This document shows positions 23,527 through 28,717 of a stretch of DNA of 54,214 bases, in pieces. Below the pieces are notes generated by a model. The model was not told the origin of the DNA. It did not search any database and saw nothing but the letters and a program-made list of their open reading frames with translations. The position numbers and the translations under genes were made by a program. This DNA comes from Planctomycetota bacterium (GTDB lineage Bacteria > Planctomycetota > Planctomycetia > Pirellulales > Thermoguttaceae), in NCBI GenBank assembly GCA_029550925.1, contig JAKPGL010000063.1, forward strand, positions 1 to 54,214, given 5' to 3'. How positions within the stretch are numbered: the stretch's first letter is position 1; every line of letters begins with the position of its first letter.

Positions 23527-24828
23527 TCACTGCGCCCACCCTTCCTGGCTGCGAGGGCAATCCGCCGCACAGATGACCAATCCCGGACACTCCGGGCATC
23601 GGGTGTCCGACCGGAGCCGATCCCGATAGCGCCGCATCACCGGACTACGGGCGATCTTCTCCCAGGAGTCTCGAAGCAGACTACCGGCCGATTGGGCCGG
23701 GCCTCGGGCCGGCAGCACCGAACCATCCGGTTCCACCCGAATGGCCGTATCGCCTGAACAGCGGGGGCCTCGCACCAGCAGGGTGGCCAACGATTGGCCC
23801 AAATGGTATTGCACCGGCGGATACCACATGAACCGCACCTGCGCAGCGCTGGCCGACTCTTCCACCCATTGGGCTGCCCGCACCAATTGTTCCCCCGGTA
23901 AGGCGCCGCCGGAAGCGATCCCAGGAGCAACCGCAATGGCATAGACAGCCGCGTTACGGACGCCCCGGCTACAGAGCGAGGCCAAGGTCTGATCGATCGA
24001 CGGCCAGGTCGCTTCGATAAGGGGTATCTCGACCACAGGACATATTTCCAGTTTCTGCGCCGCCTCCAGAGCCTGAAGCGCCTGTTCGTGGTCGCCCGGA
24101 GAGGTCCACCGGTCGTGAATGGCCGGGTCATCCGCTAGGTAGAGCAGATTCAGATGATCCAGACCAGCTTGGGCCAGGTCTTGAAGTAAGGTCCCTTGGT
24201 TCAGCAGGCTTCCCAGCCCGCGCAGACCAGCAATCAGTCCGAGGTCCTCGGCCAACTCGACCACCCGGACCAACCAACCCGGTTCGACCGACTTGCCGGC
24301 CGCCAGGGTTACATGAGGAATCCCGATGTCCCAAAGTCGCCGTAAGATCGGCTCCAGCCGCTCCGGTTCTGCCGCCGGCACATCGGCCGACAACGGACGA
24401 TCCAAATGCTTGACCTCTTTGCTCCAGGCCGGGTCCATGAGATTGATCATAGGATAATCCGCCCCAGGGCGTTGGAGCTGATCCAACAGGCGGCTGACTT
24501 CATCCAGGTCCGCCTTCAACCGCTCCACAGGCACCAGCCCGAAGGCCCTCTTTTGGAGTTGGAAGATTTTTTCCGGCGGCAGATTTTCTAGCAAACCCTT
24601 GGCGTAGATGACGCCCGAAGGCCGAAGCCAGACAGCCGCCGTGGCGCCCACTGTCAGCAGTCCCCAGCCGTCCGCATCCACGCGAAGATGAAATCGGCCC
24701 ACTTGGGCGCCGGCGTCCCGAAAGTAGTGATACAAGCCCGGCCGAATACCTGCTTTGCGTAGGGCGCCCCGGCCCGGCGAAGGCCGAAACCCAAATAAAA
24801 AACGCCGTAGTCGATCCCGCAAACTCAT
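23527..24828 (-). CDS. Degenerate radical SAM/SPASM-like protein lacking the cluster motif
   Basis: 433 residues from ATG 24828 (AAAGGAGG lies directly upstream). It aligns end to end with the next gene upstream (25222-26802): RPGLYHYF near the N-terminus, FHLRVDADGWGLL (PqqD-like region), LWDIGIPHVTLAAGKS where the active enzyme has LADLGVPQVILTGGEP, LAQAGLDHLNLLYLADDPAIHDRW, and a SPASM-like C-terminus (IRVEPDGSVLPA, CPECPGLVICAADC). The CX3CX2C radical SAM motif is absent, with no cysteine at that position. One SPASM cysteine is replaced by Ala (VLPC to VLPA), but C357 and the four C-terminal cysteines (~411-424) remain. It is probably a non-catalytic partner or scaffold rather than a decaying pseudogene, since the frame is intact over the full length. 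Confidence 0.75.
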   Translation of the reverse strand: MSLRDRLRRFLFGFRPSPGRGALRKAGIRPGLYHYFRDAGAQVGRFHLRVDADGWGLLTVGATAAVWLRPSGVIYAKGLLENLPPEKIFQLQKRAFGLVPVERLKADLDEVSRLLDQLQRPGADYPMINLMDPAWSKEVKHLDRPLSADVPAAEPERLEPILRRLWDIGIPHVTLAAGKSVEPGWLVRVVELAEDLGLIAGLRGLGSLLNQGTLLQDLAQAGLDHLNLLYLADDPAIHDRWTSPGDHEQALQALEAAQKLEICPVVEIPLIEATWPSIDQTLASLCSRGVRNAAVYAIAVAPGIASGGALPGEQLVRAAQWVEESASAAQVRFMWYPPVQYHLGQSLATLLVRGPRCSGDTAIRVEPDGSVLPARGPAQSAGSLLRDSWEKIARSPVMRRYRDRLRSDTRCPECPGLVICAADCPRSQEGWAQ

Positions 24829-25221
24829 GACGCCTCCTTTTCCCAAACGGTTTCGGTCTTCCCAAGCAGCCCCCTCTTCCCAAGCAGCCCCCTGTGTCAC
24901 TGCCGCTCTCGCAGCAGTCCATATTTACCGCCTCTCCTCTGGCGGCAGAGGCCGGCGATGCCGAAGGCAACGCCGGGTGAGGGGGGCTTTATTGTCACTG
25001 CCGCGCAAGCGGGAATCCACGGTTCTATGAGGTGGCTACTTTGTTATTCCTCCCAAGTAGAGGTTGCAAGAAGCCTAGATTGGGCGCTTGCGCGGCAGTG
25101 ACAAGGTACTGCATTCGGCTAACATGTTACTTTCGCCCTAAAATAAGCCTCCTTGGCATTCGGGCTGAAATGTTACTGTTACCGTTATTTTATCTTCTGC
25201 GGAAATCTCTGGTAATTGGGT
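24829..25221. repeat. Repeat-filled gap with rearranged family-B element
   Basis: About 24935-24987 is an inverted CCTCTCC...GGGTGAGGGG repeat. From about 24990 to 25130 lies an inverted copy of the left two-thirds of the 8331 element, ending in a GCATTCGGCTAACATGTTAC terminus. From 25131 to 25176 follows, in direct orientation, the right third of the same element (TTTCGCCCTAAAATAAGCC...). No precursor-peptide-like small gene was recognised here. Confidence 0.7.
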
Positions 25222-26802
25222 TCAGGAAACCGGCTCGGAGTTTTCCCTCAAGGTCAACAGGCAGCCCCCGCCGCAAACCGGCAAATCAGGACATTGCCAG
25301 CACCGCTGCGGCAGGCCGCTTCCTACCGGATCCTCCACCCGGCCTCGCAATCGCCGAAACAGGGGACTTTCCCAAACGGCCGTCCAAGGGTCCCGAAGCA
25401 GATTGCCGACCGGCTGGTAATAGGATTGGCAGGGCAGGACATCGCCGTCCGGTTCAATGCAGATGGAATACTGGGCGGCGTTGCAACGACGCACGCCCAA
25501 CTCCAACTCCAGCGGCGAAAACCGACAGTAACAGGTCGGCGTGTACCACAGGAAGCGCATCCCCAACTCAGCCGCCCGATCCCGCACCCGCACCAACACC
25601 GGCCCCAGCTCTTCCTCGGCCAACGCATCCGGAAAATCTTTTCCAAGACCTGAACGAATGATTCCATTCATGGCAAAGGTCCGAATCCCCAACTGGTAAA
25701 GGAAATCCACCAAGGCTTCGGCCTCCTGGGCGTTGCGCCTGGTCAGGGTGGTATTGGTCAGGGTGTACAGGCCGACGGCCAGGGCGTTTTGTATGCCTCG
25801 AACAGTCTCGGCAAAGGGATCGCTTGGGGCAATTTGTTCACCACAGCTCTGCTGACCGACGTCGGCTTGGCTGAGGCGGTTATGTACCGCTGGTCGGTTG
25901 GAAAGCAGGGTGATTTGCACATGGTCCAAGCCGGCCTGGGCCAATCGAACGGTAAAGGCCCGCTCGGCCAATCGGCGCCCGTTCGTGTTTAGCCCCACCA
26001 CCAAGCCATATTGGCGGGCCAGCCGGATCCGCTCAGGCAGATCGTCGCACAAGGTCGGCTCTCCGCCGGTCAGGATCACCTGCGGCACCCCCAGATCGGC
26101 CAGTTTTCGGACCACTTGCCGCCAGGTCTGGATGGACATCGGCGGTCTGCCGCGACGTTCCGGTAGATTATAACAATGTCCACATTGATTATTACACCCA
26201 TAATGCAGCACCACGTCCGCCTTGTACGGGGCCTGGACCGGCAGACTGAAGATCGGCCTTTGCTGTGCCCAAAAATCCGGCGCAGGTTTTGGCCCCCCTT
26301 CCTGCCTGGCCGAAGCAGATTCCGACTGTCCCAAAGCAACCGCCGACGGGGCCAAGGCGCCCAGTTGTGCCAAACCACTGCTGGGACAACAGGCGACGCC
26401 GCTTTTGAGCCGAGCTACCCAACCGAACACCGCCTCCACCATCTGCCCAAGCTCCGAGCGGGCCGTCTTGCCAGCCCCGCGTTGGAGCCGTCGGAGGGCC
26501 TGCCGACGACTGCGCCCCCCCAAGGCGTACCAAACCAACATTGCGGCGGTTGGGTTCAAATGTACCGGATCAGCCAGATCGACAAAAAGCAGTCCAGAGC
26601 CGTCCTGGTGGACCCGCAAATGGAACCGACGACCGCACCTGCTATTTTCAGACGGGGCTTCCGCCGACGGCTCGGAAACGTGCTCTGCTTCGGCAGGGGC
26701 GCTCGGCGGCTGTTCAGCGGCGGAAACCTGATAGACATAGAGGCCCGGTCGAGGGGTACTGCTGGTTCGGAAAAGGCGTTTCAGAAAGCCCATCATGCCC
26801 AT
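25222..26802 (-). CDS. Radical SAM/SPASM protein with N-terminal PqqD-like region
   Basis: 526 residues. Residues ~58-135 look like a PqqD-type peptide-binding domain (FHLRVHQDGSGLLFV, HLNPTAAMLVWYALGG). The radical SAM domain starts near 195 with CNNQCGHCYN (C203, C207, C210 binding the 4Fe-4S/SAM cluster) and VILTGGEPTL. The C-terminal SPASM domain supplies further cluster cysteines: C440, C448, C458 (VLPCQ), and C501, C504, C510, C514. This architecture is that of PqqE/AnSME-like enzymes that modify peptides or proteins. A Pro/Ala/Glu-rich linker (30-55) and a Ser/Ala/Gln-rich insert (140-175) are unusual. No recognisable precursor peptide is adjacent. Three ATGs cluster at 26802-26793, so the exact start is uncertain. 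The degenerate paralogue lies 393 bp downstream. Confidence 0.88.
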   Translation of the reverse strand: MGMMGFLKRLFRTSSTPRPGLYVYQVSAAEQPPSAPAEAEHVSEPSAEAPSENSRCGRRFHLRVHQDGSGLLFVDLADPVHLNPTAAMLVWYALGGRSRRQALRRLQRGAGKTARSELGQMVEAVFGWVARLKSGVACCPSSGLAQLGALAPSAVALGQSESASARQEGGPKPAPDFWAQQRPIFSLPVQAPYKADVVLHYGCNNQCGHCYNLPERRGRPPMSIQTWRQVVRKLADLGVPQVILTGGEPTLCDDLPERIRLARQYGLVVGLNTNGRRLAERAFTVRLAQAGLDHVQITLLSNRPAVHNRLSQADVGQQSCGEQIAPSDPFAETVRGIQNALAVGLYTLTNTTLTRRNAQEAEALVDFLYQLGIRTFAMNGIIRSGLGKDFPDALAEEELGPVLVRVRDRAAELGMRFLWYTPTCYCRFSPLELELGVRRCNAAQYSICIEPDGDVLPCQSYYQPVGNLLRDPWTAVWESPLFRRLRGRVEDPVGSGLPQRCWQCPDLPVCGGGCLLTLRENSEPVS

Positions 26803-26888
26803 CGTCTGCTCGGTCTTTTTTGCCCCACGGCGGCTTCCACCCCAACTTCTTTCTCGACGTCGCTTCGGCGCCGGCTGACAGCGGGCGT

Positions 26889-27119
26889 TACGTAACTTAG
26901 CCTGTCCAGGCTGAGCAATCCGTAACTTAGGCTGTCCAGCCTGAGCCGCCGCCCACTAAACAGTGGGCGTTACGTAACTTAGCCTGTCCAGCCTGAGCAA
27001 TCCGTAACTTAGCCTGTCCAGGCTGAGCAATCCGTAACTTAGGCTGTCCAGCCTGAGCCGCCGCCCACTAAACAGCGGGCGTTACGGAAAGGACCGCCGG
27101 CTGAAAGCCGACGTTACGT
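26889..27119. repeat. Array of AGCCTGTCCAGGCT hairpin repeats
   Basis: Five units of CGTAACTTAGCCTGTCCAGG-type sequence followed by CTGAG, interleaved with two CGCCCACTAAACAG-type hairpins. Variants are partly compensated (AGCCTG-TC-CAGGCT alternates with GGCTG-TC-CAGCC). It fills the gap between the radical SAM gene and the zinc-ribbon gene. This is not a CRISPR: units are contiguous and spacers are not unique. Confidence 0.85.
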
Positions 27120-27122
27120 AGC

Positions 27123-27458
27123 TCACCATTTCGGCTCTTCTTCCAGTTGGTAGGCTGCGCCGCAGTATTCGCAATGGATAAACACCGCCCCGGCCTGAAC
27201 GCTGACCGACTTGGGCCCCAAACTGCCGCCGCATTGCCGGCAGGTAAGGTTCTGCAGGTTGACATCGCCGGAAAGGTCGATTTTTTGGACGACCGTGGTT
27301 TGGGCGGGTTGCATCTTAGCCAGCACCACCAGCGCCCCCGCCGCCGCCCAAAGCACCAACCCCACCACCAGCCGCACCCACACTCCCTGCCACCCGACAA
27401 TAAAAATGAGGCCGCCCAACACCAACAACCCCGCCAAAACATAAGCTAATATTTTCAC
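27123..27458 (-). CDS. Small membrane protein with C-terminal zinc ribbon
   Basis: About 111 residues from GTG 27458 (117 if the TTG at 27476 is used; GGGAAAG precedes the GTG). Two hydrophobic helices (AYVLAGLLVLGGLIFIVG and LVVGLVLWAAAGALVVLA) are followed by a soluble tail with two CxxC knuckles, CRQCGGSLG and CEYCGAAYQ, about 22 residues apart, forming a probable zinc ribbon on one side of the membrane. I do not recognise a named family. The last knuckle region resembles zinc-ribbon tails of other bacterial membrane proteins. It is separated from the radical SAM gene by a repeat array, so a functional link is unproven. Confidence 0.65.
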   Translation of the reverse strand: MKILAYVLAGLLVLGGLIFIVGWQGVWVRLVVGLVLWAAAGALVVLAKMQPAQTTVVQKIDLSGDVNLQNLTCRQCGGSLGPKSVSVQAGAVFIHCEYCGAAYQLEEEPKW

Positions 27459-27628: not shown

Positions 27629-28717
27629 TTAAAACTCCCGGAGCAGGTCGAGCATTTTTCGGTCGAGTTTATGACCGTGGAAATCTTCATAGGCCACATC
27701 GGTCCGGTCGCTGTCCAAAACGCCAAACGAACCGCGGAAGTTCCATAGCGCCCATCCCCAGCCCGCCTCTTTCCACAAGGTCAAGCAATCCCGCATCCAG
27801 CGGAGGACCACCTCATGGGGAGTTTTATTGTAGGCGCCCCATTCGCCCACATGGACGCCCACCCCGGCGTCGGCCAGTTTTTTCCACGGTTCAATCCGAT
27901 CCTGCCGAAGCCACTGGCGGTCGATCGTTTGGTTGCCTCGTTTGAGCGGCCAAGTGGGCAGCGGCCAACCCTGAGCATTGACCCAACTGGCCTGATAATG
28001 GCTGATTTGCATCGGCTCATACCCCCGAGTGCTTTGAGCAATTTCCAAAGGAACTAATTCCCAGACGGGTTCCCGGCCCCATTGGCGCCCGTCGGCGATG
28101 ATGAGGCGTTGGGGGTCTTCTTTGCGGATGGCATCCACAGCCCGGCGGGCTACCTTGGCATAATCTTCAGGGGAAACGCCGGCCGGCTCGTTGACCAGGT
28201 TCAAGCTGAGATGCTCCGGTTTGACGCCTCGATACCGGCGGGCAAAGGCCGCCCAATGAAAGGCAAACTGCTTCTGCGCCTCTTCGTCTTTCCAAAGATT
28301 GAGTTTCTCCGGCGGCCGGGCCACCGTGTAACCCGGCGCCCGATGGAAGTTGAGGCACACATGGATTCCATACTTCCGGCCCCACTCCACCGCCTGATCA
28401 ATCTCGGCCAACGTCTTTTCGATCAGCTTGTACGGGTCTTTCGGGTCGGTCCAGCAGCGATAATCCATCGGAAGCCGAACAAAATCAAATCCCCAGTCGG
28501 CCATCCATTGGAAGTCCTGTTCCACAAAGGGCTTATTGCGGCTGGGAAACATGAACTTTTCCACCAGGTTGAAGCCTCGCCATCGGGGCAGCTTTTTCCA
28601 GAGGGGATGCTGCGTCGGCTTCGGGGCCGGTTCCCCGGCTAAAATCCTTGGGCCGATTGCCAACGTCCCGCCTACTATCCCACCAGCACTGAGTCGGAGA
28701 AAATGCCGTCGGTTCAT
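27629..28717 (-). CDS. Secreted GH5-like cellulase-family glycoside hydrolase
   Basis: 362 residues with a twin-arginine-like signal (NRRHFLRLSAGGIVGGTLA). The TIM-barrel shows GH5 features: RGFNLVEKF near 48, DWGFDFVRLPMDYRCW, HVCLNFHRAPGY, LNLVNEP with acid/base E177, and VGEWGAYNKT with nucleophile E292, then WGWALWNF. The expected activity is a beta-glycanase (endoglucanase or mannanase) acting outside the cytoplasm; the exact substrate is not assignable. AAAGGG precedes the ATG. It stands apart from the upstream plus-strand genes across a 790-bp divergent gap. Confidence 0.88.
   Translation of the reverse strand: MNRRHFLRLSAGGIVGGTLAIGPRILAGEPAPKPTQHPLWKKLPRWRGFNLVEKFMFPSRNKPFVEQDFQWMADWGFDFVRLPMDYRCWTDPKDPYKLIEKTLAEIDQAVEWGRKYGIHVCLNFHRAPGYTVARPPEKLNLWKDEEAQKQFAFHWAAFARRYRGVKPEHLSLNLVNEPAGVSPEDYAKVARRAVDAIRKEDPQRLIIADGRQWGREPVWELVPLEIAQSTRGYEPMQISHYQASWVNAQGWPLPTWPLKRGNQTIDRQWLRQDRIEPWKKLADAGVGVHVGEWGAYNKTPHEVVLRWMRDCLTLWKEAGWGWALWNFRGSFGVLDSDRTDVAYEDFHGHKLDRKMLDLLREF

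Follow-up and report, generated by a model that had tools for sequence, protein, structure and literature searches.

A radical SAM/SPASM enzyme with a retained cluster-less copy in Thermoguttaceae and a Cys-Ala-tailed membrane protein as its probable substrate

Several radical S-adenosylmethionine (SAM) enzymes with a SPASM domain, including SkfB, SuiB, CteB, and PapB, act on short precursor peptides, and others, such as the anaerobic sulfatase maturase (anSME) and QhpD, act on whole proteins; we know of no cluster-less twin for either anSME or QhpD. One report describes a radical SAM enzyme whose target is a repeated TVGG motif and thereby offers a precedent for repetitive targets (PMC9062424), and another describes TIGR04222 membrane proteins, which have a low-complexity, Cys-containing C-terminal tail, are encoded beside multinuclear nonheme iron-dependent oxidative (MNIO) enzymes, and have been proposed as protein-sized substrates (PMC12452194). 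Here, we analyze a 54,214-nucleotide (nt) stretch of planctomycete DNA (the window: positions 1 to 54,214 of contig JAKPGL010000063.1, assembly GCA_029550925.1, family Thermoguttaceae) that encodes a radical SAM/SPASM enzyme (A) next to a full-length relative lacking the cluster cysteines (B). We favor, with moderate confidence, a reading in which A is a protein-modifying maturase acting on the Cys-Ala tail of a membrane protein (C), B is kept as a non-catalytic subunit, and two further genes, S and D, belong to the same system. A search of a library of open-access papers found no description of such an A-B-C system. The two central genes of the window are:

25222..26802, minus strand: gene A, radical SAM/SPASM protein of 526 amino acids (aa), recognized by Pfam, alignment, and cysteine motifs
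23527..24828, minus strand: gene B, 433 aa, related to A over its full length but without the cluster motif, recognized by alignment, structure model, and the ratio of nonsynonymous to synonymous substitution rates (dN/dS)

Protein A exceeds the Pfam cut-offs for both the radical SAM (PF04055, 69.9 bits versus 29.5) and SPASM (PF13186, 39.6 bits versus 21.5) domains and carries the cluster-binding CX3CX2C cysteines (C203/C207/C210), a GGEP motif, and six cysteines of the SPASM pattern. The CX3CX2C cysteines are kept in 27/27 A proteins examined: 15/15 accompanied by B, 2/2 accompanied by a truncated, cluster-less B-like copy found in two Chloroflexota (B'), and 10/10 without a partner. By alignment, the N-terminal region of A resembles PqqD and the recognition element (RRE) of enzymes that modify ribosomally synthesized and post-translationally modified peptides (RiPPs). 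At an E value of ≤0.1, the PqqD model (PF05402) matches 8/15 A proteins with B, 7/10 without B, and 7/16 B proteins; the Pfam scan detected no such match in the window's own A or B.

An earlier reading of the window's letters (the sequence-only reading) had described A and B as related over their whole length, with CX3CX2C and GGEP confined to A and the VLPC of A changed to VLPA in B, all of which is correct. The likeness extends from an RRE-like "GLYHY...RFHLR" region through a CX2CX5CX3C block (the open reading frame [ORF] of B as listed starts at GTG 24900, but translation more likely begins at ATG 24828, preceded by AAAGGAGG, giving 433 aa); the CX3CX2C cysteines are absent from every B (0/16) and B' (0/2), and B has no GGEP. 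The five SPASM-type cysteines that the same reading counted are present in the window protein, but only four are conserved (C411, C414, C420, and C424, forming CX2CX5CX3C, in 15/16 B proteins): the fifth, C357, occurs in 9/16 and lies one column off the cysteine of A. B lacks the seven-cysteine SPASM pattern, two earlier SPASM cysteines having disappeared (0/16), and has acquired C263 (13/16). The profile search that had been suggested places A above both domain cut-offs but the window's B below them (PF04055, 18.8 versus 29.5; PF13186, 18.8 versus 21.5); across B orthologues at E ≤ 0.1, PF04055 matches 10/16 (best, 3.6e-7) and PF13186 matches 13/16. The structure model of B (predicted local distance difference test [pLDDT] score, 83.8; predicted TM-score [pTM], 0.83) is closest to SkfB (6efn; Z 19.5, root mean square deviation 4.6, 315 aligned residues) and also resembles viperin (Z 18.3), SuiB (Z 17.4, 324 residues), and anSME (Z 16.9), with BlsE and PqqE also matched; SuiB is the top Foldseek match (2.5e-9), and the alignments begin at residue 44 (SkfB) and residue 35 (SuiB). 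The predicted structure of B is, as such, a radical SAM barrel minus the cluster loop and not the unrelated fold that had been weighed as a contrary outcome.

B is under purifying selection, in agreement with the selective retention proposed from its intact frame. Its dN/dS is 0.10 to 0.16 in the window's genus and 0.09 to 0.20 in a second trio (L064, L065, and L067), and the values for A are 0.17 to 0.21 and 0.08 to 0.25, respectively; in the window's genus, S gives 0.08 to 0.12 (YN00 gave 1/3 estimates) and C gives 0.10 to 0.13 (one pair), all of these ratios being approximate, as several pairs have a dS close to or exceeding 1. A decaying pseudogene might be suspected from the loss of catalytic motifs and from the B of one genome that has no C-terminal cysteine block, but the low dN/dS in the window's genus, the cysteine block of the other 15/16, the presence of B in all 13 family genomes with A, and its position near A in 12/13 linked loci leave this explanation next to no probability, and we reject it on the basis of dN/dS and cysteine retention. 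The exceptional B (G058; L069, 9941-11170) ends differently, and the other frames downstream were found to contain no such block either.

The distribution of these genes was followed in 61 Thermoguttaceae genomes (the family sample, in which G000 is the genome of the window), in a wider sample of 392 planctomycete genomes, and in 15 genomes from outside the family, each searched whole with B. Most of these genomes are metagenome-assembled and incomplete, so absences are soft; the independent evolutionary events are few. With family search thresholds of E ≤ 1e-30 for A, at least 46% identity for B, E ≤ 1e-10 for C, E ≤ 1e-6 for S, and E ≤ 1e-15 for D, the genes A, B, C, and S were each found in the identical 13/61 genomes and nowhere else among the 61, and D was found in 12 of those 13 and in no others (the exception, G041, is 88% complete). 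The number of possible sets of 13 among 61 genomes is 6.6e12, although relatedness among the genomes means that this is not a clean probability. A and B lie on separate contigs in G001 and G034, yet they still co-occur; in G000, G031, G054, and G058, C sits on a contig apart from A and B, and in G452, A is on a contig other than that of B and C. Weak B matches in G023 and G048 were set aside as other radical SAM proteins with CX3CX2C.

An all-against-all ORF comparison around 32 loci recovered S, C, and D as conserved neighbors (21, 24, and 17 loci, respectively), S not being seen in the four Heimdallarchaeota of this comparison; D accompanies A also in loci without B. The genome of the window holds C and D at the following positions, both recognized by a search of the genome:

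G000:C210:2187-4088: gene C, on a contig other than that of A and B
G000:C12:23761-24480: gene D, SAM methyltransferase

C is a membrane protein of about 520 to 660 aa that comprises a signal-like N terminus, a beta domain, membrane helices, a helical domain, a Gly-rich stretch, and Cys-Ala repeats. All 27 complete C ends, from five phyla ranging from Planctomycetota to Heimdallarchaeota, finish in a Cys-Ala tail (..CACACAGGGR-stop), which at the extreme C terminus takes the form (CA)2-4-G-(CA)3-4-GGGR or unbroken (CA)n-GGGR. These ends derive from 12 family genomes, G343, three Anaerolineae, two other Chloroflexota, four Fermentibacteria/Aegiribacteria, four Heimdallarchaeota, and one Thermoplasmata; a 28th C (L068) is interrupted by the contig end. 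Mean column identity in C is 37% (19 of the 28 sequences), and the tail, which is unstructured in the model (pLDDT 77.8), is the most invariant part of the protein. C lies beside A in several phyla and directly adjoins A in lineages without B. Among the 392 phylum genomes, full-length C was found only in G000 and G343, with six more having a partial, weak match; G343 has both A and C, and a whole-genome search found no B there.

C is the probable substrate of A, a candidate that fits the suggestion of the sequence-only reading that a larger protein, with its gene at another site, may be the target. Such a substrate is unlike a short RiPP precursor in its size and membrane segments; no search for short peptides was made. 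A competing explanation is that the substrate of A is a small molecule or cofactor (haem-, pyrroloquinoline quinone-, or MoaA-like), the product of which C simply makes use of. The NCBIfam models that match A best (NirJ2, a haloarchaeal pseudo-SAM family, AhbD, and PqqE) are in keeping with this view, but all fall far under cut-off (best, 91 versus 500), many A proteins possess the RRE-like domain, and both the invariance of the tail and the position of C beside A in several phyla speak against it; we consider it quite improbable. Identities as a NirJ/Ahb, PqqE, mycofactocin, GeoRSP, or haloarchaeal pseudo-SAM protein were discarded, the models all scoring far under cut-off.

A single hydrophobic segment follows the N-terminal domain in 6/7 aligned C proteins (archaeal, Fermentibacteria, and Chloroflexota L046/L049), and three helices long enough to span a membrane appear in the model of an Anaerolineae C, for which reasons the tail is taken to be cytoplasmic; membrane counts are approximate, since hydropathy windows also flag one helix of the soluble domain. 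Foldseek matches C to M1 aminopeptidases and ribophorin-type oligosaccharyltransferase subunits (E from 2e-8), from which no function was adopted, only ~200 to 350 columns aligning at a TM-score of ~0.2. C also scores below cut-off against DUF2207_C (16.8 versus 33), in one (L047) of three proteins scanned.

Weaker matches to C in planctomycetes (L090 to L099) carry (ACHS)n tails that finish in GGSF, GGSH, or GGAH, apparently a related second tail type. In 8/10 of these loci, the tail is followed after ~400 to 500 nt by a same-strand radical SAM motif; the remaining two loci are cut by a contig end. For the (ACHS)n membrane proteins of L090 to L096, L098, and L099, a radical SAM/SPASM gene is directly next in 8 loci, L094 being cut by the contig end.

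Outside the family, B is present in three of the 15 genomes (Anaerolineae), B' is present in two (Chloroflexota), and A stands alone in ten. Because A and C occur without B in 10/15 of these genomes, B is a lineage-specific add-on. The co-occurrence of A and B that the sequence-only reading anticipated thus holds within the family, including the two genomes with separate contigs, but does not extend beyond it, and the idea that the partner is needed wherever A occurs finds no support in those ten genomes, several of which are incomplete assemblies. The two B' genes, both recognized by alignment, are:

L046, 4255-5421: B' next to A
L049, 9326-10441: B' next to A

Both B' are truncated and, unlike B, keep GGEP. 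The B' of L046 exceeds Pfam cut-offs despite its missing cysteines (PF04055, 42.5; PqqD, 27.9 versus 23.4). In the tree, the 16 B proteins form one clade and both B' are placed elsewhere; therefore, the cluster was probably lost twice, the B' of Chloroflexota having probably arisen independently. A single origin of all B-like genes was set aside, as the tree needs two, with only borderline rejection in the approximately unbiased (AU) test (p 0.0476), in which both B' had been seen in the tree beforehand and the L049 B' is a long branch.

Partnered and lone A proteins differ in their cysteines. The last SPASM cysteine, 10 to 11 residues past the CX2CX5CX3C block, is present in 10/10 lone A proteins but in none with B (0/15) or B' (0/2); 5/15 A proteins with B have a cysteine 9 to 23 residues past the block that could be a substitute, and 10/15 have none within 25 residues. 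Conversely, a linker cysteine before the barrel occurs in 15/15 A proteins with B, 2/2 with B', and 1/10 lone A proteins, and a linker CXXC pair occurs in 12/15 (not in the window's genus), 2/2, and 0/10, respectively. The coincidence, in two lineages, of a CXXC-type linker motif with a missing or moved last SPASM cysteine in partnered A could reflect a ligand swap.

These differences bear on what B might do. If B were an intermolecular electron relay, its auxiliary-type CX2CX5CX3C block would return the post-turnover electron to the SAM cluster of A, replacing the altered second auxiliary site of A. B keeps the four cysteines of this block in 15/16 cases and no other SPASM-pattern cysteine, and the last SPASM cysteine is confined to lone A proteins. 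In PapB, the second auxiliary cluster, whose ligands are taken as C408, C411, C417, and C440, is needed for an electron return that is intermolecular (PMC10470005); the mapping of this route onto A and B is our own. However, the possible replacement cysteine in 5/15 A proteins and the linker cysteine of partnered A, which could itself be a ligand, offer other means of completing the site, and B' has no SPASM cysteine although its A also lacks the last one, which speaks against a general relay role; we regard a relay as unlikely. Broadened to a tail-maturation system of Bacteria and Asgard archaea in which a dead copy was recruited twice and the main-lineage B relays electrons through an auxiliary-type cluster only, the proposal is rather unlikely.

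B could instead be purely a structural or substrate-docking subunit, its four cysteines binding zinc or stabilizing the fold and playing no redox role. The set of features common to B and the cysteine-free B' (RRE-like region, barrel, and GIPHV/GIPQV strand) agrees with this, as does the above-cut-off PqqD match of the L046 B'; conservation of four cysteines in 15/16 B proteins is more than a scaffold seems to require. We hold this docking-only role to be a tentative possibility.

In the reading that we favor, A would modify the Cys-Ala tail with which membrane protein C ends, with a thioether joining the Cys sulfur to carbon as the expected product by analogy to Cys-dependent RRE-SPASM maturases. 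B would have arisen by duplication, lost SAM-cluster catalysis, and been retained as a non-catalytic subunit, presumably in complex with A; it probably docks C or positions the tail through its RRE-like N-terminal domain and dead barrel, and a single remnant iron-sulfur cluster may also reside in it. S would serve as a membrane zinc-ribbon accessory, and the methyltransferase D would act in the same pathway. We infer the tail modification, its chemistry, and the role of B from the comparisons above.

Several observations weigh against this reading. Whole-genome searches of the ten outside-family genomes with A and C recovered no B-like gene, indicating that B is dispensable for the core reaction, and the B' of L046 and L049, with no SPASM cysteine at all, show that not all features kept in B are general. 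The window's own PqqD matches lie below detection, such that the RRE assignment of both N termini draws on homologues. The tail could also be a plain metal-binding tail, with A acting on something else. Finally, the tail pattern by itself is not specific at the DNA level: it has three matches in the 392 genomes, as does a reversed control. Of the matches to the true pattern, two correspond to C genes (G000 and G343), and the third (G257) was rejected as a C, lying inside a 219-aa frame and not at its C terminus. Taken as a whole, the interpretation of the sequence-only reading is partly supported.

The remaining features of the locus are:

27123..27458, minus strand: gene S, 111 aa, probable GTG start, upstream of A, recognized by neighbor comparison
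24990..25130, no strand assigned: dispersed ~140-nt repeat that lies between A and B and bears 20-nt inverted repeats, recognized by its genome copies

S has a hydrophobic N-terminal part followed by a zinc-ribbon-like CXXC...CXXC domain and a PKW end, and no Pfam or NCBIfam family matches it above cut-off. The repeat has at least 39 further copies in the genome (40 of 354 candidates scored). The A-B gap is 393 nt in the window and -4 to 94 nt in 12 other linked loci (starts chosen in the analysis), with a 4-nt overlap or 44-nt spacing in sister genomes; the long gap is due to the dispersed repeat, which is not part of the system. Between S and A, direct and palindrome-like repeats of the CGTAACTTAGCCTGTCCAGGCTGAG type are clustered at window positions 26869-27123. 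At 27629-28717, the window encodes a protein resembling glycoside hydrolase family 5 (GH5) cellulases, with a weak twin-arginine translocation (Tat) signal match; relatives of it are found near S in L059 and L060.

If the tail of C is the target, C would probably represent a protein-sized radical SAM substrate whose Cys-Ala tail is strikingly conserved across Bacteria and Archaea alike, which would suggest a hitherto unrecognized way to alter a large protein chemically. The natural contrast between A alone and A with a cluster-less twin makes the roles of SPASM auxiliary clusters and partner subunits testable.

Among named systems, the sequence-only reading had likened the pair to GeoRSP, in which, by that account, a radical SAM gene is likewise paired with a second protein bearing SPASM-type cysteines. 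The likeness is not supported: B has a barrel over its full length, the TIGR04303 score of A is 76.6 (98.9 for the A of L060) where the cut-off is 400, and no GeoRSP partner model is among the 13 NCBIfam families listed for B at E ≤ 1. The haloarchaeal pseudo-SAM/SPASM family TIGR04347, pseudo-SAM by name, gives 19.8 for B and 85.9 for A against a cut-off of 525. TIGR04117, by its model name a Cys-Xaa-Xaa-Xaa repeat radical SAM target, weakly matches an (ACHS)n relative (L091, 18.3 versus 50) and none of the three Cys-Ala C proteins scanned.

The RRE-containing SPASM maturases SkfB, SuiB, CteB, and PapB have a domain order like that of A, and the model of B fits SkfB best and SuiB well; the present system departs from them in its probable substrate, a large membrane protein, and in the cluster-less second copy kept in some lineages. 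anSME and QhpD resemble A in that they act on whole proteins and not on peptides (putatively so for A), and the B model matches anSME, but their target proteins and motifs are others. The nearest published ideas found are Cys-repeat radical SAM targets and the TIGR04222 proteins beside MNIO enzymes (PMC12452194). C scores 18.9 against the TIGR04222 cut-off of 43 in one protein (L047) and has no score in two others. Like C, the TIGR04222 proteins are Cys-tailed membrane proteins beside a RiPP-type modifying enzyme; here, however, the enzyme is a radical SAM protein, and the tail is strictly Cys-Ala and probably cytoplasmic, as opposed to the periplasmic location proposed in that report (PMC12452194).

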